Notes: generated by a model not told the origin, from the sequence alone. Shown: positions 9,489 to 27,051, counted from the first letter of the stretch. The stretch is 34,599 bases of DNA from Eubacteriales bacterium (GCA_021372675.1 JAJFTZ010000004.1:1-34599); one strand, 5' to 3'. A program made the numbers and translations.

Positions 9489-9500
9489 ACAAGAGAGCTT

Positions 9501-9868
9501 AAAGCTTTTGGGGGTTCGGGGGCCGCTCGCAGTTCGCAATAGTCGTTCCGCTCCCGTATGGTCGCGTTATTCCTTTGCTTACTGGGCTTCCGCCTCGCTT
9601 CTTCTGCCACTGGCAGCGCTCGGCCCCGCCCCGCGGAGGCTCTAATCCGCCGCCGGCGACATGTGCGGCGGCGGAAAGCCTTACTGCGTAAGGCTTTCCT
9701 TGCAGGAAGTACCGACCGCAACCTTAATTGTCGCTGAAGGCGACATCCGTAGTGCCCGTAGGGTACGAGGTACGAAGCCCCCAGCGGGAGACACCTTGGC
9801 CACTCGGCCTTCGAACCTTGCAGGTACTTTCTGTAATCCTCGAACAAGTGACGTATGTCACTTGTTTG
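9501..9868 (+). repeat. hairpin-rich intergenic repeat, copy A
   Basis: Fills the gap behind the TSUP gene. Landmarks shared with copies B and C, in order: GGGGGTTCGGGG near 9511; 'GACATGTGCGGCGGCGG' near 9658; a 12-bp hairpin GGAAAGCCTTAC-TGC-GTAAGGCTTTCC (9673-9699); TTGCAGGAAGT; 'GTAGTGCCCGTAGGG' near 9750; 'GCAGGTACTTTCTGTAATCC' near 9820; and a closing hairpin CGAACAAGTGAC-GTAT-GTCACTTGTTTG (9841-9868). Reading frames through it are shadows. This is the longest copy of the three. Confidence 0.8.
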
Positions 9869-9876
9869 AAAAATAT

Positions 9877-9904
9877 ATGTCCCGCGGGAAACCCCGCGGG
9901 ACAT
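9877..9904 (-). terminator. strong hairpin, probable terminator of the Cys/Arg-rich gene
   Basis: ATGTCCCGCGGG (9877-9888) pairs with CCCGCGGGACAT (9893-9904), a 12-bp stem. On the minus strand it is followed by ATATTTTTC. It lies just beyond repeat copy A and 79 bases after the end of the minus-strand microprotein gene. Confidence 0.6.
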
Positions 9905-9982
9905 CGGCATTTCTTGAGGAGAGCGGCCGTACGCCGGCCGTGGAGGGCCGCCTTGTTAAGGGCGGGCGGGGGAGCCGGTTTT

Positions 9983-10102
9983 TTAACGCCAGCATCTGCG
10001 GCAGCGGCAGTTGCGGCGGCACCGGTTACGGCAGCGGCGGTTGCAGCGCCTGTTCCCGGAGCCGGCATTGCCTAGAAAAAAGAAGGGCCAACATGAGCGC
10101 AT
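9983..10102 (-). CDS. 39-residue Cys/Arg-rich basic microprotein
   Basis: The minus-strand ATG at 10102 lies eight bases after AAGGGAG and opens 39 codons to TAA. After a short hydrophobic start 'MRSCWPFFFLG', residues 15-39 are almost only Arg, Cys, Asn and Trp in a repeating C-x2-3-R-R-C pattern ('NRRCNRRCRNRCRRNCRCRR'). It has seven Cys and 15 Arg. This could bind nucleic acid, metal or crosslink in a spore layer. It is too short for usual gene finders. A longer frame start at 10174 has no ribosome binding site. Family unknown. Confidence 0.6.
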   Translation of the reverse strand: MRSCWPFFFLGNAGSGNRRCNRRCRNRCRRNCRCRRCWR

Positions 10103-10208
10103 GGTATTCACTCCCTTTGGTTTATTTGCAAAGCAAGAAGCTGTTACAGTACACAGTATGTCTATGAAAGGCAATGCGTGAAAGCGTGAGAAAGGAAGCC
10201 GCCGCGGG

Positions 10209-10376
10209 TCAGCTCTTCTCCCCGGGGCAAAGCTCCTCGAATACCGAAGTGGCGACCATCATTCTGCTGAGCTCGCGCAGAAAAATGCTCAGGCAGACAA
10301 AATCCTCCCGGGAGAGGCTGCAATAAAAATAATTGGTCAGGGTCGCGATAAGGACGTTCATCTCGCACGGATCCAA
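10209..10376 (-). CDS. 55-residue DUF6774-like small protein
   Basis: A TTG at 10376, five bases after AGGTGA, opens 55 codons to TGA at 10209-10211. The sequence 'CEMNVLIATLTNYFYCSLSR' and then 'EDFVCLSIFLRELSRMMVAT' has the two-helix pattern (T-x-L.., L-S-x-[DE]-[ED], F-L-x-x-L) that I associate with the DUF6774 family of short Clostridia proteins. This match is from memory and needs a profile search. Function of that family is not known. The overlapping 68-codon frame at 10162-10368 is a shadow. Confidence 0.5.
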   Translation of the reverse strand: MDPCEMNVLIATLTNYFYCSLSREDFVCLSIFLRELSRMMVATSVFEELCPGEKS

Positions 10377-10590
10377 AGCAATCACCTAAGGCATAATATG
10401 CCGAAGCCCCTTTTTCCGCCGCACCGTGCCTTTTTAGGTGCGCCGCGGCCTAAATTTTATCCCTTGCGGGTTCTCGGGCCGCGCCGGTTGTGGTACGATA
10501 AGACTAAAGGGCGCTTAGTTTACCGCGCCTTACGTCCAATTGAAATATGCGGGGCCGGCCGCGGCGCGCGGAAGCCCGGAAAGGGGTCAT

Positions 10591-11511
10591 ATGGAGTTTT
10601 TAAGGATGCTGCAGGAGGTGCGTACGCCTTTTTTCGCGCAGGTGTTCGCTCTTATTACCTATCTGGGCGACGAGCTTATCTTCATGGCGGTCGTAATGGC
10701 CGTGCTTTGGTGTGTGGATAAAAAGTGGGGCTACCGGCTGTTCGCCATGGGGCTGATGGGCTCCATCCTCAACCAGCTTCTCAAGGCGATCTTTCTGATA
10801 CCCCGCCCGTGGGTGCTCGACGCGTCCTTAAGGCCTGTCGATGCGGCGTTGCCGGGGGCCACGGGGTATTCGTTCCCCAGCGGGCACACGCAAAGCGCCT
10901 CCACGCTGTTCGGCGGCGTGGCCGTTTGGCTTAAGAAAAGCGCCGTCACCATAATATGCGTGCTTTTGATCTTGCTCACGGGCTTTTCAAGGATGTATTT
11001 AGGCGTGCATACGCCGCTCGACGTGGGCGTTTCCCTCGGCACGGGGCTCCTCACGGTGATGCTGTTCGCCTATTTGTTCAAACGGGAGGATCGCGGCAAA
11101 AGGCATGTGAGCGCGGGCGTGGGCTTTGCGCTTTTGGTAACTTCGCTCGTTTTGCTCCTTTACGCGCTGCTTGCGCCTAAAACGGAGCGCAACGTGGAGC
11201 AGTTCGATTTGGAGGGTGTAAAGACCGCTTACACGGTGCTGGGCGCCGTGCTGGGGCTTATCGTTTCGTGGCTCGTCGATAGGCGCTGGCTCCGCTACGA
11301 GGTGCGCGCCGCGTGGTGGGCGCAGGTGTTGAAGTTCGCGATCGGCGTCGGCCTGCTGGCGGGGCTGCGTGCGGTGCTCAAGGCCCCGCTTCTCGCCCTG
11401 TTCGGCGGCGCGGACATCGCGCACGGCTTAAGGTATTTTCTGGTGGTCGTCACGGCCGGGGTGCTATGGCCGCTTACGTTTCCGCTCTGGGCGAAAACGG
11501 CTCACAAATAA
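10591..11511 (+). CDS. PAP2-superfamily membrane phosphatase (second copy)
   Basis: 306 residues with at least eight hydrophobic segments. All three phosphatase motifs are canonical: 'KAIFLIPRP' (K-x6-RP), 'SFPSGHTQSAS' and 'SRMYLGVHTPLDVG' with catalytic His and Asp. The C-terminal ~110 residues add further membrane segments. I choose ATG 10591, preceded by AAGGGG, because the upstream frame is low-complexity. Likely a lipid-phosphate phosphatase, for example undecaprenyl diphosphate recycling. It is only distantly similar to the PAP2 gene in the sugar operon. Its end overlaps the convergent DUF1294 gene by ten bases. Confidence 0.88.
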   Translation: MEFLRMLQEVRTPFFAQVFALITYLGDELIFMAVVMAVLWCVDKKWGYRLFAMGLMGSILNQLLKAIFLIPRPWVLDASLRPVDAALPGATGYSFPSGHTQSASTLFGGVAVWLKKSAVTIICVLLILLTGFSRMYLGVHTPLDVGVSLGTGLLTVMLFAYLFKREDRGKRHVSAGVGFALLVTSLVLLLYALLAPKTERNVEQFDLEGVKTAYTVLGAVLGLIVSWLVDRRWLRYEVRAAWWAQVLKFAIGVGLLAGLRAVLKAPLLALFGGADIAHGLRYFLVVVTAGVLWPLTFPLWAKTAHK

Positions 11512-11780
11512 TAAAGCGCCGCGACTAAGGCCGCAAGCTGCAAGATAAAAATCGCGGGCATGCCGAAGCGGAACGCGCTCTTCCGCGTTTTGTGGCGGAA
11601 GGCGTACATGCCCAGGAGGCTCCCCAAAGCGCCGCCGAGGAAAGCGCATAAAAAAAGCGCGCGCTCGCGTAGCCTGCGCGCGTTTTTTTGCGCGCGGGAT
11701 TTATCGAACCCCATCAGCGCGAAGCCGAAAAGGTTCATAACGAGCGCATAAAGGCCGAGGGCGGGGAGAAGTCCCTTCAT
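11502..11780 (-). CDS. DUF1294 membrane protein
   Basis: 92 residues with hydrophobic segments at both ends. It shows the DUF1294 signature: 'FGFALMGFDKSRAQKNARRL' then 'RERALFLCAFLGGALGSLLG' and 'MYAFRHKTRK'. Function of the family is unknown. Its ATG overlaps the stop of the TtcA-like gene (ATGA), so the two are co-transcribed. Confidence 0.85.
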   Translation of the reverse strand: MKGLLPALGLYALVMNLFGFALMGFDKSRAQKNARRLRERALFLCAFLGGALGSLLGMYAFRHKTRKSAFRFGMPAIFILQLAALVAALYYL

Positions 11781-12535
11781 GGCGCTTCCGCCTCCCGCGC
11801 CTCGCCGCGCGGCGGCAGGCTTAATCTATCCCACATGCCGTATTTTCCCGTTTCGGAAATGGCGGTCATGATGCGCTCCGGCGCGTCGGGCAAAAGGGAA
11901 GTGAAGTAGCGAAGCACATCCTTCATCTCCTCGCGCTTGGTCTTGCCCGCGACGGGGCAGTTGGGCTTGCACACGGGCACCTCGAGCCGCCGCGCGGCGC
12001 TGAGCGCGTATTTTTCGGGCAAAAACACGAGCGGGCGTATCACGGTAACGCCGCTACGGCTCAGGTACGTGACGGGCCCGAAGGTGTTAAGGCGGCTTTC
12101 GTAGAGAAGGCTCATAAAAAAGGTCTCGAGCACGTCGTCGCGGTTGTGGCCGAGCGCCACGAGGTTGCAGCCGCGTTCCCTTGCGGCGTCGTTGAGCGCG
12201 CCGCGCCGTAGCTTCGCGCATAGCGCGCAGGGGTGCTTTTCCGCGCGCGCGTTAAACACCACCTCGCCGATGTCGGTGCGGAGAATGTCGAAGGGGACGC
12301 CTATTTTGCGCGCGAAGTTCTCAACGGGCGCATGGTCCTCCTTCGTGAGGCCGAGGTCGAGCATCACCGCGCATACGTCGAAGGGCGTTTTGGAGAACGC
12401 GGCATAGAGCTTGAGACCGTACATCAAAAGGAGGCTGTCCTTGCCCCCGGAAACGCCCACGCATACCTTGTCGCCGGGATGTATCATGTTGTAGCGCTCG
12501 TCGGCGCGGCGGATACAGCCGAGTATTCTCTTCAT
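11777..12535 (-). CDS. TtcA-like PP-loop tRNA-thiolation enzyme
   Basis: 252 residues. The N-type PP-loop 'SGGKDS' is at 29-34. A C-x2-C pair (C103, C106) in 'HPCALCAKLRRG' and a C-x3-C pair (C189, C193) in 'CKPNCPVAGK' are placed as in the TtcA/TtuA group. These enzymes adenylate a tRNA base and use an Fe-S cluster or zinc to insert sulfur. 'GHNRDDVLETFFMSLLY' is a further TtcA trait. Whether it makes 2-thiocytidine or another thiolated base cannot be told. The start ATG follows AAGGGGAAGC. Confidence 0.88.
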   Translation of the reverse strand: MKRILGCIRRADERYNMIHPGDKVCVGVSGGKDSLLLMYGLKLYAAFSKTPFDVCAVMLDLGLTKEDHAPVENFARKIGVPFDILRTDIGEVVFNARAEKHPCALCAKLRRGALNDAARERGCNLVALGHNRDDVLETFFMSLLYESRLNTFGPVTYLSRSGVTVIRPLVFLPEKYALSAARRLEVPVCKPNCPVAGKTKREEMKDVLRYFTSLLPDAPERIMTAISETGKYGMWDRLSLPPRGEAREAEAP

Positions 12536-12650
12536 GCTTCCCCTTACTTTAAGCCTGCCGCAATCGGCAGGAAGTGCTTTTTTATTATAACAGGCGATCG
12601 TGTGCGCCGCAACGCGGCAAGCGTTTTTGCCGCAGGCTGCCCCAAAACCC

Positions 12651-12871
12651 CAGGGGGGTTCGGGGACCGAAGCCCCCGGAAGCTAAGTTCGCGAGCGGCG
12701 ATATGTGCGGCGCGAGCGAGAAGCCTTGCTTTGCAAGGCTTTCTTTGCAGGAATCGCTGGCCGCAACCTTGTTTAGTTACCGAAGGTAACATCTGTAGTG
12801 ACCGAAGGGTATGCGGGACGCACAGGCGGGTCCTGTAATTGTCAAAAAAGTGACTACGTCACTTTTTTGAC
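12651..12871 (+). repeat. hairpin-rich intergenic repeat, copy B
   Basis: Shares the landmarks of copy A in the same order: GGGGGGTTCGGGG near 12654; 'GATATGTGCGGCG' near 12700; hairpin AAGCCTTGC-TTT-GCAAGGCTT (12721-12741); TTTGCAGGAA; 'GTAGTGACCGAAGGG' near 12795; TCCTGTAATT; and a perfect 14-bp closing hairpin GTCAAAAAAGTGAC-TAC-GTCACTTTTTTGAC (12841-12871). It occupies most of the 12536-12955 gap. A small hairpin ATGCC-GCA-GGCAT follows at 12872-12884. Confidence 0.8.
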
Positions 12872-12894
12872 ATGCCGCAGGCATGAAATAACGG

Positions 12895-12924
12895 TTGCTC
12901 TTGCCGCGGCACAGAGGTTATAAT
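12895..12924 (+). promoter_or_regulatory. sigma-A promoter of the P-loop gene
   Basis: TTGCTC (12895-12900) and a perfect TATAAT (12919-12924) are 18 bases apart, 31 bases before the TTG start of the P-loop gene. Confidence 0.65.
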
Positions 12925-12955
12925 AGAGTTAACAAAAGTAAGGGAGGGGTTTCTC

Positions 12956-13387
12956 TTGATACGCGTAATCGTGGGCGAGACCGGTACGGGTAAAACCAAG
13001 CGCATCATCAGCATGGCGAACGAAACGCTGCAATCGGCAAAGGGAAGCATCGTTTTCCTCGATCACGACAGCAAGTACATGTTCGACCTGAAGAACGCGA
13101 TCAGGTTCATCGACGCATCCGAATTCCATATCGACTGCCCGGAAAAGTTTACCGGCTTTTTAGCGGGGCTTGCGGCTCAGGACTTTGATTTGGAATACAT
13201 CTTCATCGACGGTTTTCGTAAGATCGTGCGTCACCCGCTGGAAACGCTCCCCGGCCTTTTCGAGGAGCTCGAAGCCTTCTCGAAGGAACGCGGCGTCAAA
13301 ATCATTTTCAGCATCAGCGCCAACCCCGAAACGCTTCCCGAATTTTTACGCGGCTATTTCCTCGAAATGTCGGAAAACCTCGTATAA
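12956..13387 (+). CDS. small P-loop ATPase-like protein of unknown role
   Basis: 143 residues. Walker A 'GETGTGKT' lies at residues 7-14. A hydrophobic strand ending in Asp, 'LEYIFIDGF' near 77-85, is a plausible Walker B. The small size and lack of further domains suggest an ATPase core related to ATP-binding proteins of the KaiC/RecA-like or signal-recognition folds, but I do not recognise a family. The TTG start lies six bases after GGGAGGGG. Its own promoter and terminator make it monocistronic. Confidence 0.7.
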   Translation: MIRVIVGETGTGKTKRIISMANETLQSAKGSIVFLDHDSKYMFDLKNAIRFIDASEFHIDCPEKFTGFLAGLAAQDFDLEYIFIDGFRKIVRHPLETLPGLFEELEAFSKERGVKIIFSISANPETLPEFLRGYFLEMSENLV

Positions 13388-13409
13388 TGTAAATTTATAC
13401 ATTTCTCAT

Positions 13410-13436
13410 AAAGCGGACGCATTCGCGTCCGCTTTG
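13410..13436 (+). terminator. intrinsic-type hairpin after the P-loop gene
   Basis: AAAGCGGACGC and GCGTCCGCTTT form an 11-bp stem around ATTC (13410-13435). The T run behind it is short, so termination strength is uncertain. Confidence 0.55.
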
Positions 13437-13467
13437 CTGTTATGGCCCGCCGCATAGAATTGTTCAT

Positions 13468-13497
13468 TTGACGGGCTGTACTGAAACTTGATACAAT
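13468..13497 (+). promoter_or_regulatory. sigma-A promoter of the processing protease
   Basis: TTGACG (13468-13473) and TACAAT (13492-13497) are separated by 18 bases, giving a leader of about 60 bases before the ATG at 13563. Confidence 0.65.
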
Positions 13498-13562
13498 GTG
13501 CATACATAATACGGAACGAAAAAACGTTCCCTTTTTTCCATTCGGGCTCGGGAGGCAAAATT

Positions 13563-14783
13563 ATGAAGTCCTGGCTGAGGACGACCTTATATTTTCTGGC
13601 GGTGATCCTCATCACCGCCGCGGTCACGGCGGGCGTCACCGTGGGCGTTATGAACCGCAGCGCTTCGGACGCGGTCGTAATGAGCGTGGAGGAATACCGC
13701 AAGCTCAAGGACGTGCTGGTACTCAAGGAGATCATGGAAAAGATCGACGCGGAAGCGCTTCACAGCGCCGTTACGCACGACGAGCTTGTGGAATTCGGCG
13801 CGCGCGGCATGCTTTCCGCTTTAAACGACCGCTATGCGGAGTATTATACCGCCGCGGAATACGAGGCATACCTTTCGCGTATCAACGGCGAGTACAACGG
13901 CATCGGCATTTTGGTGGGGCAGCCCAACGAATCAGGCGCGCCCGTGCTCGATGTGTACGACGGCAACCCCGCGGCTTTGGCGGGCGTGATGCCGGGGGAT
14001 ATCATCACCGCTGTAAACGGGCAAAGCATGATAGGCGCGCAGCTCGACGAGCTCGTGGCGGCCGTGGACGTGGAGATCGGCGAAACCGTTACGCTGAGCA
14101 TTCTTCGCGGCGCGCAGACGCTCGAAATACCCGTGACGAGCGCGGCGGTAAACATCAAGCGCGTGAGCTACGCCCTTTTTAAGGAGCGCACGGGCTATAT
14201 CCGCCTCGATATGTTCACCGGAAACTGCGTGGACGAATTTGAGGAGGCGCTCAAAAACCTCAACGAGCGCGGCATGAAATCCCTCGTGATCGACCTTCGC
14301 AACAACCCCGGCGGCTCGCTCGACGACGTGGTGGAGATCGCCGACATGCTCCTTGGGGATTGCGACATCGTGAGCCTGAAGGGGAACGACGCGGCGGATG
14401 TGCGCGTGTACCGCTCCAAAGGGCGGCCGGTCAAGGTGCCGCTCGCTATTTTGGTCAACGAAAACTCCGCCTCCGCCAGCGAAATCTTAGCGGGCGCGAT
14501 ACAGGACAACAGCGCGGGCGTTATCGTGGGCATGAAAACCTTCGGCAAGGGTATCGTGCAAACGACGATGCCGCTCGATTCTAACGGCGGCTGGCTCAAG
14601 CTCACCACCGAGGAGTATTTTACGCCAAGCGGTGAAAACATCCACGGCGTGGGCATCACGCCCGATATCATTGTGGATCTGCCCGCGGATATGAAGGGCC
14701 TTCCCATCGGCCAGCTCGATCAGGAAAACGACGCGCAGCTTTGGGGCGCGCTCGACTACGTGCGCGCGGAGGCGAATAAATAA
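13563..14783 (+). CDS. C-terminal processing peptidase, S41 family
   Basis: 406 residues. An N-terminal membrane anchor (residues ~7-30) is followed by a PDZ domain (~105-185, 'GVMPGDIITAVNG') and the S41 protease core. The catalytic pair is read as S304 in 'NENSASASEI' and K329 in 'GKGIVQ', with the 25-residue spacing of known tail-specific proteases. 'DLRNNPGGSLDDVVEIAD' is another hallmark. It would cleave exported or membrane proteins outside the membrane; paralogues act in sporulation signalling (CtpB) in Bacillus. I start at ATG 13563, seven bases after GGGAGG, rather than at the upstream in-frame start, which overlaps the promoter. Confidence 0.92.
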   Translation: MKSWLRTTLYFLAVILITAAVTAGVTVGVMNRSASDAVVMSVEEYRKLKDVLVLKEIMEKIDAEALHSAVTHDELVEFGARGMLSALNDRYAEYYTAAEYEAYLSRINGEYNGIGILVGQPNESGAPVLDVYDGNPAALAGVMPGDIITAVNGQSMIGAQLDELVAAVDVEIGETVTLSILRGAQTLEIPVTSAAVNIKRVSYALFKERTGYIRLDMFTGNCVDEFEEALKNLNERGMKSLVIDLRNNPGGSLDDVVEIADMLLGDCDIVSLKGNDAADVRVYRSKGRPVKVPLAILVNENSASASEILAGAIQDNSAGVIVGMKTFGKGIVQTTMPLDSNGGWLKLTTEEYFTPSGENIHGVGITPDIIVDLPADMKGLPIGQLDQENDAQLWGALDYVRAEANK

Positions 14784-14806
14784 CGTGTTTTTGTAAAACA
14801 CGAAGC

Positions 14807-14838
14807 ACAAAAAAACGGCTCGCGGGCCGCTTTTTTGT
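14807..14838. terminator. bidirectional terminator
   Basis: ACAAAAAA-a-CGGC and GCCG-c-TTTTTTGT arms form a stem with T runs on both strands. It sits between the protease and the convergent DUF378 gene. A second hairpin, CGTGTTTT-TGT-AAAACACG, lies just upstream at 14784-14802. Confidence 0.75.
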
Positions 14839-14863
14839 GTGGATGCTATCGTCTTTTTTTCAA

Positions 14864-15076
14864 TCAATCGCGATCCCGCTCGTGCCTCAGACCGTCCCTG
14901 CGGAACAGGATGGAGATGCCCCATATGCCCGCAAGCCCCACGATGGTGTAGACCACGCGCGCGAGCACGGTGCCCATCCCCCCGAAGATGGCGGCGACGA
15001 GATCAAACTGGAAAAGTCCGATGAGGCCCCAGTTGAGCGCGCCGATGATGACGAGTATAAGCGCAAGTGTATCCAT
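14864..15076 (-). CDS. DUF378 membrane protein
   Basis: 70 residues with two hydrophobic helices. The DUF378 signature 'GALNWGLIGLF' is at residues 12-22, and 'VVYTIVGLAGIWGI' forms the second helix. Function of the family is unknown. The ribosome binding site AAAGGAG precedes the ATG. Confidence 0.85.
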   Translation of the reverse strand: MDTLALILVIIGALNWGLIGLFQFDLVAAIFGGMGTVLARVVYTIVGLAGIWGISILFRRDGLRHERDRD

Positions 15077-15174
15077 GCTCTTTCTCCTTTGCTAGATGTA
15101 GCACTAGCTTGCGCAGATACATGATTTTCATACGCAGGGCGTATGGGAAAAGCTGGAAGAAGAAAGAAACGCGT

Positions 15175-15441
15175 TTATTTCTGAAAAAACAGCTCCACCT
15201 CGAACCGGTCGAAATCTACGCTCTCCATGAAGTCCTCCGGCTTGAACACGGCGCGGGAAAAACGCTCGAAATCGCTGATATGCTTATTCAAAAGCACCGG
15301 CCGCGAAAGGTCGAGCGTGCGGCAAAGCTCGTTTACGAGAAGGCCGGGGTCTTTGACCTCGTCTTTTTTTTGATGCGTCGTTTCCAAAAGCGCATCCTTC
15401 ACGATGCGCCCATCCGTGCGTAAAACGCCCCAAACCTTCAT
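15175..15441 (-). CDS. conserved hypothetical small protein
   Basis: 88 residues, soluble, with no signal peptide. It begins 'MKVWGVLRTDGRIVKDALLE', followed by a helix with 'LCRTLDLSRPVLLNKHISDF' and ends 'EDFMESVDFDRFEVELF'. This pattern (short beta start, helix, 'P-x-x-L-x-K-H', 'F-x-P-x-D-F-x-E-S-V') recurs in short Clostridia proteins of unknown role, as far as I recall. Repeat copy C lies 20 bases upstream of its start. Confidence 0.7.
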   Translation of the reverse strand: MKVWGVLRTDGRIVKDALLETTHQKKDEVKDPGLLVNELCRTLDLSRPVLLNKHISDFERFSRAVFKPEDFMESVDFDRFEVELFFQK

Positions 15442-15460
15442 GCGCCGCTCCTTAAATTAT

Positions 15461-15680
15461 CGAAAAGGTGACGCGTCACTTTTTCGAGGATTACAGGAAG
15501 TACCTGCTCGTGCCTCGCGCACGGCACTTCCTGCAAAGAAAGCCTTGCCACGCAAGGCTTTCCGCCGCCACCGCGCATGTCGGCCCTAGGCGGGCCACGC
15601 CTACGGGCACTAGGCCTGCGGGCCGTCGCCGGCGGCGGATGGAAACCTCCGGGGCTCCGGCCCCGAACCCCTAAGAGGAT
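15461..15680 (-). repeat. hairpin-rich intergenic repeat, copy C (minus orientation)
   Basis: Read on the minus strand it repeats the landmarks of copy A in order: GGGGTTCGGGG near 15668; 'CATCCGCCGCCGGCGAC'; 'TAGTGCCCGTAGG' near 15605; 'GACATGCGCGGTGGCGG'; hairpin GAAAGCCTTGC-GTG-GCAAGGCTTTC (15538-15562); TTTGCAGGAAGT; 'GCAGGTACTTCCTGTAATCC'; and the closing hairpin CGAAAAAGTGAC-GC-GTCACCTTTTCG (15461-15486). The 'TAGTGCCCGTAGG' block sits before the hairpin here but after it in A, so internal order is partly permuted. Confidence 0.8.
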
Positions 15681-15695
15681 CTTTGACAATACACT

Positions 15696-15720
15696 GCGGG
15701 CGGGCTCAACGCCCGCCCGC
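15696..15720 (-). terminator. strong GC hairpin after the zinc-ribbon protein
   Basis: GCGGGCGGGC (15696-15705) pairs with GCCCGCCCGC (15711-15720). It is placed 20 bases after the stop of the minus-strand zinc-ribbon gene. The following bases are not T-rich, so it may act as a 3' stabiliser instead of a terminator. Confidence 0.45.
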
Positions 15721-15740
15721 AAGGAAGCTCCGTTTGGCGC

Positions 15741-17612
15741 TTAGTTCTTCAGGATATACCAAGCGTAAATGATGGGGATGTTCAGCTCGCTGTCCTTGCC
15801 GTTAGGGTCGCCGTAGACCTTGTAGGTCTTGGAGTCGTTCGCCTCCACGGTGGCAATGCCGCTGTAGTAGTAGAACAGCACGTCGCCGCTGCTGGTTTGG
15901 AGCTTGGCGATCACGAACGGGGAGGACTGGATGATCTCCGTGACCTTGCCCACCACCTCGTAGGCCTGCTTGTGGCGCGGCGAATCCATGAGATACTGGT
16001 AATCGAGGATGTACGCGCCCTTGATATAGGTTTCTTTATCGGGGCTGCGCTCGAGGTAGATGGTGCGCGTGCCGCTTGTGCCGTTAAGGTTGGAGGTGAC
16101 GGTCGCCACATAAAGGCTGACCTCGGGCATTTTCACGGTAAAGCTGAAGGTGCCGTCGGTGTTGACCGTGACCTGGCCCGAAAGCTCAACGCCCGATACG
16201 CTCAGCGCCGCGCCGGACTGCACGGTTCCCTTTACGGTGAGGGTCGTGTCGGTGGTGCGGCGGGACTGGTCGCCCGCAAAGTCGAACGAGGGGGTGCCGG
16301 AGGAGGCGGGCAAATTCTGCGCCGTTTCGCCGCCGGTGCCGCCCGTTGTGGCATTGGGGGTGTAGGTTACGTCCACGGTCTGCCGCGCGATCTGGTAGCC
16401 GTTCTTGCGCGCCTCCACCACGATGGAGCTCTTTCCTTCGGCGCCCACGGTATAGGTGCCCGTGAAGCTGCCGGTCTCGTCCACGGTAAGCAGCTTGTCG
16501 CCTACGAACACGGAGGCGGTGTTATCGGTAACGGTGCCGGAAACCGCCACGTCCGGCGACGCGGTCTCGAGCGGCGAGACGGGGGAGGTGAGCGTGAGGC
16601 CGATGTTCGGGAGGTTGATGACGATGGGCGTTTCAAACTCCACCTTTTCCTCCGTGGTACCGTCCTTGCCGATGACCACGATATCGGGGTAGACCTCCAC
16701 CGTAGCGCCGTCCACAGGCTCGGCGGGGATGAAGATATCCTCGCTCACAATCATGGTCTTTTTGCCCTCGGTGATGATCATGCTGTCGTCGTCCACCACG
16801 AGGGAGCCGGAGGTGAAGCGCAGGCGCGAACCGTTTTTGGCGTAGACCGTGATGTAGTACTGCTTGTTGGACGGATCGGTGCTATCCTCCGTGATGGTCG
16901 CCTGGCGCGTGATGTTGCTCTTGCTGAAAATGCCGCCAAGGAAAGCGCCCGAGTTTTTGGCGCCTCCGCCGGAACCGCCGCCGAAGCCCCTGACGAGCAG
17001 AGAGATGCCGAGAACCACGATCACGATCACGAGCACGCCCGCGATCACGCCGTAGACCAACGGCTTTCTGATGCGCGATTTGCGCTTGCGGCTGTTGGCA
17101 TAGCCGTAATCCGGAAACGATTCGGCCTTCGGGGGCTTCGGTTCTGCTCTGCGCCTCACGGGGGCGACAGGCTCCGCTTCCTCCGCCTGTTCGTCGGCGG
17201 GGCCGCAAACAGGCGCGCCACGGCGAAGGGGCGAGGGATCGGAGGCGTTGAAGCGGGGAGCGCTCGCGGGCGCGGCAACCGGCGCGGGCTGCGCAGGCTC
17301 GTCCTGCTTGGGTGCATCCTGCTTGAACGCGTCCGGCTTAGGCGGCTCCGCGGCGCTTGCCGGGCGTGGTTCGAAGCGGTTGAGGTACGCCTCGGGGACA
17401 TCCTCGGCGCTTACGGTATTCGCGTCAAAGTCGGGCTTGGGCCAGCTTGGGGAACGCACGAACCCCCATGCCGAGGGCTCTGCCTGCCGTTCGCCGGCGG
17501 AAGAAAGGCCGGCCGGGCCGCCGGCCGCCGCATCAGGCTCAAGGGGCGCGGCGCAGTTTTCGCAAAACTCGAGGTAATCCTCGTTGTAGGCGCCGCATAC
17601 CTTACATCTCAT
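15741..17612 (-). CDS. zinc-ribbon / single-TM / Ig-like envelope protein
   Basis: 623 residues. It starts with a zinc ribbon (C3, C6, C17, C20). A Pro/Ala-rich linker (~25-165) and a basic stretch lead to one membrane helix at ~185-207, then a Gly-rich hinge. The outer part holds beta-rich modules. One spans ~340-420 ('ASPDVAVSGTVTDNTASVFV') and a similar one follows ~440-530; both look like bacterial Ig-like/glucodextranase-B repeats. A C-terminal ~90-residue domain ends 'IPIIYAWYILKN'. The cytoplasmic zinc ribbon with an extracellular Ig array is typical of Clostridia envelope proteins of unknown function. AGGAGG precedes the ATG. Divergent from the AMIN lipoprotein gene. Confidence 0.8.
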   Translation of the reverse strand: MRCKVCGAYNEDYLEFCENCAAPLEPDAAAGGPAGLSSAGERQAEPSAWGFVRSPSWPKPDFDANTVSAEDVPEAYLNRFEPRPASAAEPPKPDAFKQDAPKQDEPAQPAPVAAPASAPRFNASDPSPLRRGAPVCGPADEQAEEAEPVAPVRRRAEPKPPKAESFPDYGYANSRKRKSRIRKPLVYGVIAGVLVIVIVVLGISLLVRGFGGGSGGGAKNSGAFLGGIFSKSNITRQATITEDSTDPSNKQYYITVYAKNGSRLRFTSGSLVVDDDSMIITEGKKTMIVSEDIFIPAEPVDGATVEVYPDIVVIGKDGTTEEKVEFETPIVINLPNIGLTLTSPVSPLETASPDVAVSGTVTDNTASVFVGDKLLTVDETGSFTGTYTVGAEGKSSIVVEARKNGYQIARQTVDVTYTPNATTGGTGGETAQNLPASSGTPSFDFAGDQSRRTTDTTLTVKGTVQSGAALSVSGVELSGQVTVNTDGTFSFTVKMPEVSLYVATVTSNLNGTSGTRTIYLERSPDKETYIKGAYILDYQYLMDSPRHKQAYEVVGKVTEIIQSSPFVIAKLQTSSGDVLFYYYSGIATVEANDSKTYKVYGDPNGKDSELNIPIIYAWYILKN

Positions 17613-19815: not shown

Positions 19816-19968
19816 GGCAGAGTAGGATGCCGCGCGTTGTACCGCATGCGAAAGCATGCGGGGAGTGCCGCCCGAACGGGGAGTTTGTCGGGCGGACGAA
19901 AAGCCGAAGCAAGGGGGAACGTTCCCGCGCTTCCAACGCTTGCGGTGCGGTGTCCGCATCCCGCTGCC
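19816..19968 (+). promoter_or_regulatory. THF (tetrahydrofolate) riboswitch, enlarged
   Basis: The ends match the THF (folT) riboswitch: GGCAG-AGTAGGATGC at 19816-19830 and 'CCGCATCCCGCTGCC' at 19954-19968. P1 is GGCAG with CTGCC. GGATGC can pair with GCATCC, and GCGTTG (19834-19839) with CAACGC (19934-19939). Conserved CGCGTT and GCGGTG blocks are in place. Known type-I examples are about 100 nt; this one is 153 nt because the interior carries extra hairpins: CCGCATGC-GAAA-GCATGCGG (19842-19861) and CCGCCCGA (19868-19875) with TCGGGCGG (19888-19895). The following folT and folC genes fit exactly. It senses reduced folates. Confidence 0.85.
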
Positions 19969-26812: not shown

Positions 26813-26831
26813 AACTCCAAGAGGTTCAATT

Positions 26832-27051
26832 CCGGCTTCGGGGGCATGTACGCGTCCGGCGAAGCCGGAGCCCTTTGGGCCAAGGCCTTCGGCCTTGCGT
26901 CCCGAAACGGATGAAATCCGTAGGATTTCGTTCCTATCGTCTCCGCCGCCCGGGAGCGCTTGCGCGAGAGGCGGAGGCGTAAAACCCCCGAAGGGCCGTT
27001 CCCCCTCGCGAAAGCGGCTACGCCGCTTTCGCGACACGCGCTTCGCGCGTG
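26832..27051. repeat. cluster of five hairpins in the gap before the GlmU-like gene
   Basis: Consecutive stems: CCGGCTTCG (26832-26840) with CGAAGCCGG (26860-26868); CAAGGCC-TTC-GGCCTTG (~26881-26897); GAAATCC-GTA-GGATTTC (~26914-26930); CGCGAAAGCGGC-TAC-GCCGCTTTCGCG (27007-27033); CACGCGC-TTC-GCGCGTG (27035-27051). Most have three-base loops. No open reading frame is convincing. It is not a copy of the A/B/C repeat but is of similar style. Confidence 0.55.

Follow-up and report, generated by a model that had tools for sequence, protein, structure and literature searches.

What is the hairpin-rich repeat that lies between the genes of a 34,599-nucleotide stretch of a Eubacteriales bacterium (GCA_021372675.1, JAJFTZ010000004.1:1-34599)? 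This stretch, which we will call the window at its full length, is one strand of a 2.56 Mb draft genome in 123 contigs, and a first-pass annotation of it had described three copies of the repeat (here A, B and C), read as a functional RNA or a mobile structured element. The copies were recovered at the places and on the strands it gave, and they have in common five hairpins (P1 to P5) with compensatory stem changes. The mobile half of that description is strongly supported by hairpin target duplications, ends of the IS1182 type, empty orthologous sites, a patchy distribution and four copies of equal score in one related genome (G013), while the RNA half is neither shown nor excluded. In our view the repeat is very probably a non-autonomous mobile element of the IS1182 family, similar to a miniature inverted-repeat transposable element (MITE), that duplicates its target hairpin on both sides.

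The first line of evidence lies just outside the coordinates first proposed for the copies. Well-preserved copies are found between two near-identical hairpins, and the hairpin differs from locus to locus; such a duplicated hairpin flanks 32 of about 116 element copies examined. When the left and right flanks of each copy were aligned locally, with 1133 pairs of flanks from mismatched loci as controls and their 99th percentile as cut-off, 27 of 96 copies exceeded the cut-off versus 10 of the 1133 controls, and the best real pair scored 32 against 13 for the highest control. The clear duplications are mostly of 20-33 bp and each covers a whole hairpin, such as AAAAGGCGTACGGAATCCCTCCGTACGCCTTT (locus L189), AGCAAAGCGCCCGTCGTTTGACGGGCGCT (L192), AAAAAGGAGCGGTGTGACCGCTCCTTT (L003) or AAGCGCGAACCTTGCGGTTCGCGCTT (L309); eight further cases were found besides the flank-alignment set, and at L039 half a hairpin only is duplicated, over 15 bp. 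A DDE transposase normally duplicates a fixed number of target base pairs, given by the distance between its two strand transfers. In the present case the duplicated stretch covers the whole hairpin, so that the hairpin, and no fixed stagger, determines the length, which is what an extruded cruciform or hairpin as target would lead one to expect. This suggests that the target would be recognized by its cruciform or hairpin shape, which would also determine the size of the duplication.

The second line of evidence comes from the ends of the element, which read [hairpin]TCAGRC-TGTCRAAAAA ... TTTTTCGACA-NGC[TGA] and match those of full-length insertion sequences (IS) of the IS1182 family from the same bacterial family. 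The IS1182 transposase model NF033551 finds members in 16 of the 103 genomes of this family, among which the own genome carries an intact copy of 494 amino acids (L183, 394 bits) with the Pfam domains DDE_Tnp_1_6 and DUF772. The ends of the full-length IS resemble TCAGNC-TGTCGANAAA, their right end carries a hairpin like P5, and they adjoin a host hairpin. Full or near-full NF033551 elements end in TCAGCCTGTCGAAAAAGTCCAG (L290), CAGTCTGTCAAAAAAGTCC (L289) and CAGCTTGTCGAGAAA (L183), to be compared with TCAGGCTGTCAAAAAAGCC (own genome), TCAGTCTGTCGAAAAAGTC (G083) and TAGACTGTCGAAAAAG or CAGACTGTCGAAAAG (G021) for the repeat. The left ends are alike nearly base for base, both between the repeat of G083 (TCAGTCTGTCGAAAAAGTC) and the IS of G084 (TCAGCCTGTCGAAAAAGTC) and between the repeat of the own genome (CAGGCTGTCAAAAAAGCC) and the IS at L289 (CAGTCTGTCAAAAAAGTC), and in G084, which contains both repeat and IS, the ends of the two match. 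The hairpin duplication also occurs at two complete IS1182 copies, with CCCCCGGCTCTGCCGGGGGA on both sides at L274 and AATCAGTTTCTGCAGAAAYTGA on both sides at L290. The core of the element measures about 190-240 bp, and some copies reach about 380 bp through nested modules; the element carries no transposase gene and is too short to encode a transposase of about 480 amino acids. Thus the repeat has what is expected of a MITE: ends shared with IS1182, no coding room for a transposase, and a hairpin target duplication like that of its parent IS. Variable direct repeats are listed in ISfinder for members of the IS1182 family, and a specialist may already know single cases. An IS1202-type origin had been suspected from the TGT ends and the long duplications, and was dropped once NF033551 elements with matching ends had been found; the IS1202 family itself was not searched. 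Mobility is likewise accounted for by the IS1182 ends without recourse to REP/RAYT elements, which combine REP hairpins, a tetranucleotide guide and a RAYT transposase.

The third line of evidence is found in a sister species (genome G001), where contig C232 is syntenic with window positions 10578-16300 and lacks both copy B and copy C. At the site of copy C it has one hairpin (CGCGGGCGGGAAACTCCCGCCCGCG), the counterpart of GCGGGCGGGCTCAACGCCCGCCCGC beside C in the window. The G001 orthologues of L014 and L018 also lack the element and have one terminator-like hairpin each, and for L009 and L013 the left flank alone aligns and is followed by one hairpin. As terminators diverge fast between species, these sites demonstrate the absence of the element together with the presence of one hairpin, and not the base-by-base identity of the target. 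They also bear on the idea that the two hairpins pre-existed as separate bidirectional terminators, between which the element inserted. Tandem terminators do exist, and the syntenic sites come solely from another species, but the hairpins to the left and right of a copy are near-identical to each other and unrelated to those of other loci, and only one is seen in the sister species wherever a hairpin is recognizable, which makes this explanation most improbable. At another G001 site (L271, on C13), orthologous to that of L012, a gene measuring about 500 bp takes the place of the element; it may encode a NUDIX-type protein, has hairpins GGCGCGC..GCGCGCC on both sides, and is perhaps another hairpin-flanked insertion.

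The abundance of the repeat is in keeping with mobility. The family had been guessed to be large and so it is: with copy C as query, BLAST returned 66 matching pieces in the own genome, and a covariance model of P2-P5 (R1) gave 41 matches there and 37 in G001, a congener. Within the bacterial family, 18 of 103 genomes had a match to this model, as had 13 of 26 genera; it had no match in 390 other Clostridia genomes sampled, with strict filters that diverged forms would escape. The distribution is patchy even between congeners (18 matches in G030 versus 2 in G008), and the four G013 copies with identical model scores occupy four different loci. A pattern scan of genome contigs gave mainly chance matches in GC-rich genomes, with the exceptions of Christensenella sp. 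UBA7707 and a few metagenome-assembled genomes from the gut, which are individually unconfirmed. The window itself holds a fourth, diverged relative that the count of three had overlooked (26829-27036, +; E 2.9e-5). In this relative, termed form II, P2 starts at 26832, P3 at 26909, and P5 (TCGCGAAAGCGGC..GCCGCTTTCGCGACACGC) lies at 27006-27039. Form II is also found at L060-L063 and L093; its P2 is CCGGCTTCGGCGGCATGTACGC and its P3 ATGAAATCCGTAGGATTTC, its P5 terminates in CGCGA-CACGC or CGCGA-AAGC, and its ends are less clear.

How could such an element accumulate between genes? With an IS1182-type transposase supplied in trans, it would insert into a palindrome, in most cases a neighboring gene's rho-independent terminator. 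The two transposon ends would be attached one to each side of the hairpin, and gap repair would then leave a complete hairpin on each side. The left hairpin copy is separated from its T-tract by TCAGRC-TGTC, and the right one commonly retains a T-rich tract; termination is thus probably spared, the right-hand hairpin still terminating. With its terminator surviving, the host would find the insertion nearly harmless, so that many copies could accumulate. The genomic context fits with this scheme. Among about 42 copies for which both neighboring genes could be given a direction, called by codon usage, only 2 lie between divergent genes, and convergent and tandem pairs dominate; by the same calls, the element is not consistently oriented with respect to its neighbors, and the copies lie downstream of unrelated genes. 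The few divergent pairs and the lack of a consistent orientation fit with insertion into terminators and argue against a cis-regulatory role.

Several observations weigh against reading the repeat as an IS1182-family MITE. In the majority of copies, A, B and C among them, the two hairpins are not both seen, and decay has to be assumed. The empty sites, taken from another species whose terminators have diverged, do not form a strain-level pair of before and after. In the NF033551 search of the 103 family genomes, most of the element-rich ones yielded no intact IS1182 transposase. IS and repeat occur together in only three genomes of the family where about 2.8 are expected by chance, that is, without correlation, a count that rests on draft genomes, which commonly lose multicopy IS. 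Finally, the internal hairpins P1-P4 are unneeded for a minimal MITE, and transposition alone leaves them unexplained.

These hairpins are worth a closer look. On the plus strand of the element, the left end TGTCRAAAAA is followed by P1 (GGGGTTCGGGGGC..GCCCCCGG), P2 with the loop motif GGCGACATGYGCGG, P3 (AAAGCCTTGC..GCAAGGCTTT), P4 (TTGCAGGAAGTACC..GGTACTTCCTGTAA) and P5 (TCGAAAAAGTGNC..GNCACTTTTTCGA). All three copies fold more stably than their dinucleotide shuffles (z of -5.99 for A, -5.65 for B and -6.94 for C). The paired change that had been described in the AAGCCTT hairpin is indeed present: copy A reads AAAGCCTTAC/GTAAGGCTTT, and copies B and C read (A)AGCCTTGC/GCAAGGCTT. In all three, the closing hairpin does keep GTGAC/GTCAC inside variable outer stems, but this inner stem varies genome-wide (GTGCC/GGCAC, GTGGC/GCCAC), and in copy C the closing hairpin has a single A.C mismatch (AAAAAGTGAC / GTCACCTTTT). 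Beyond the window, 28 copies from several genera were aligned with MAFFT (alignment A4, not fitted to the structure) and examined for covariation. Both sides are changed in 25 of the 50 pairs. Doubly changed cells number 161 where shuffles give 55.8, and the covariation score of 0.365, reached by 0 of 500 shuffles, compares with 0.152 in these. Sliding the partners by 1-3 columns lowers pairing from 83.5% to 41-46%. Compensatory changes are found at 11 of 14 pairs in P4 and at 7 of 13 in P5, and a set from the own genome (A2) agrees, although its structure was read from that set's own alignment. The real counts thus beat every shuffle, in controls that ignore the relatedness of the copies, and the stems covary above background. 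Neither of the outcomes that the first-pass annotation had named as refuting, a lack of further copies or of covariation, was therefore observed.

Such covariation could have several sources. The paired changes could arise mainly at the DNA level, through correction of one arm by the other when a palindrome undergoes template switching, rather than through selection on structure, a proposal that touches the covariation alone and agrees with a mobile element. Indeed, at L014 and L311 the two flanking hairpin copies are mutually inverted (loops TTTTA/TAAAA and TTTT/AAAA), which suggests later flipping of the palindrome, as expected from template switching, and paired arm changes are also seen between duplicated host hairpins, for example at L013. 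The inverted pairs are, however, only 2 of 32, and the loop motifs CGRCATGYRCG of P2 and CCGNCCGYG of P4 are kept across genera as the stems change, which would not be predicted from correction alone. We regard arm-to-arm correction as a possible source of the paired changes, though not the likelier one.

The same conserved loops and covarying stems would be expected of a structured non-coding RNA or 3'-UTR (untranslated region) element that selection has multiplied for a cellular function, for instance in termination or in the stability of mRNA 3' ends. In addition, the plus-strand stems contain more G.T than A.C pairs (45:8 in A2, and 187:46 in the copies of the own genome and G001), with the exception of P5 (2:2); this excess is only a hint of constraint at the RNA level, as it comes from few independent columns and the larger set is model-fitted. 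Against such an RNA stand the locus-specific hairpin duplications, the IS1182 ends, the empty orthologous sites and the patchiness between close relatives such as G008 and G030. An RNA of this kind would also be at odds with the lack of a consistent orientation to neighboring genes, and no fixed position or orientation relative to a gene class, as for a riboswitch, was found. Among the Rfam covariance models no family matches the element, and in four relatives the Rfam search gave sub-threshold matches only; a group II intron, a riboswitch and a known small RNA were rejected for lack of a match. The sole match above the gathering threshold in the window lies elsewhere, and is a tetrahydrofolate (THF) riboswitch aptamer at 19816-19968 (+; 61.5 bits). 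A cellular RNA is thus an unlikely explanation for the repeat. It is also rather doubtful, if conceivable, that the conserved P2-P4 act as RNA or single-stranded DNA with a role of their own in transposition, for example by recruiting the transposase or by helping to select hairpin targets; if this were true, the element would be a parasite assisted by structured nucleic acid and not a passive MITE.

Coming back to the IS1182-type element in the window, copies A, B and C are old, and none retains both hairpins. All three are intergenic, as first proposed, genes having been identified on both sides of each. Copy A (9493-9871, +), between TauE/SafE and PAP2 genes, is a long form with a degenerate left end (GAGAGCTTAAAGCTTTTGGGGG, 9493-9514) and extra modules nested in P1 and P4. 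Its P1 (9510-9639) has a loop enlarged by about 100 nt (9530-9620) by a second repeat; it is followed by P2 (9646-9675) with the conserved loop motif GGCGACATGTGCGG, P3, the AAGCCTT hairpin (9673-9699), P4 (TTGCAGGAAGTACC / GGTACTTTCTGTAA, 9700-9836) with an inserted internal module, and the terminal P5 (9840-9869), counterpart of the IS1182 right-end hairpin. The host hairpin ATGTCCCGCGGGAAACCCCGCGGGACAT lies directly to its right (9877-9904, +), and no counterpart was found in the left flank. The second repeat (CGCAGTTCGCAATAGTCGTTCC...CTGCCACTGGCAGCGC) enlarges P1 in the same way at L028, L238, L243 and L244 and is also found antisense beside L007; these are either nested repeats or a long-P1 subfamily. 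Copy B (12633-12872, +), with left end CAGGCTGCCCCAAAACCCC, right end ...TTTTTTGACA and P5 at 12840-12872, lies between a PP-loop ATPase gene and a P-loop gene. It is exceptional in that these genes are divergently oriented, beside a hairpin (GCGGCAAGCGTTTTTGCCGC, 12614-12633, +) directly to its left. Copy C (15458-15696, -), between a small open reading frame and a glucodextranase-B-domain gene, has its left end (CAGTGTATTGTCAAAG) at 15677-15696 and its P5 right end at 15460-15487. A terminator-like host hairpin (GCGGGCGGGCGTTGAGCCCGCCCGC, 15696-15720, -) adjoins the left end, the one that is single at the empty site of G001. In copy C (15584-15632), as in L066, L067 and L068, P2 contains a nested module (GACGGCCCGCAGGCCTAGTGCC..GGGCCGAC). 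This module also occurs in the right flank of L012 and alone elsewhere in the genome, once amid tRNA-like sequences, and is probably an independent small repeat.

How does this element compare with known systems? On IS1182 MITEs or hairpin duplication by insertion sequences, our literature search returned only two papers on IS1272 and general MITE papers, and nothing relevant on Christensenella MITEs. As presented in passages of the works on the pneumococcal BOX, RUP and SPRITE repeats (PMC3049150) and on bacterial MITEs (PMC10969869), these are likewise short, multi-copy, modular, strongly folded and intergenic, with terminal repeats, target duplications and an enrichment downstream of genes; they have other ends and other hosts, and those passages do not describe duplication of a whole target hairpin. 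Also close are IS1272 / TnSha1 of Staphylococcus, which use an IS1182-family transposase and target hairpins without sequence consensus, several of them terminators, as confirmed by RNA-seq by Furi et al. (PMC4923244; PMC5678879). There, however, the target hairpin is replaced or partly deleted without duplication, whereas the present element, which has no transposase gene, also inserts at hairpins but duplicates the complete hairpin, retained on both sides in 32 copies. Wan et al. (2017; PMC5678879) proposed that joining of the 3' ends of an IS1182-type element at the 3' feet of an extruded stem-loop deletes the latter, while joining at its 5' feet followed by gap filling duplicates the whole stem-loop; IS1272 showed deletion only, in their study as in that of Furi et al. 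The second route, their "pathway b" (PMC5678879, Fig 13), predicts the very product described here, a stem-loop at both ends of the element, but was drawn as a possibility without examples. The reading given here explains an unannotated repeat family with abundant intergenic copies in these Christensenellales genomes, and suggests a way for mobile elements to spread via terminators while leaving termination intact. With about 32 element copies and two IS, the repeat provides natural examples of this pathway, hitherto hypothetical for the IS1182 family, and opens structure-directed integration to direct tests.

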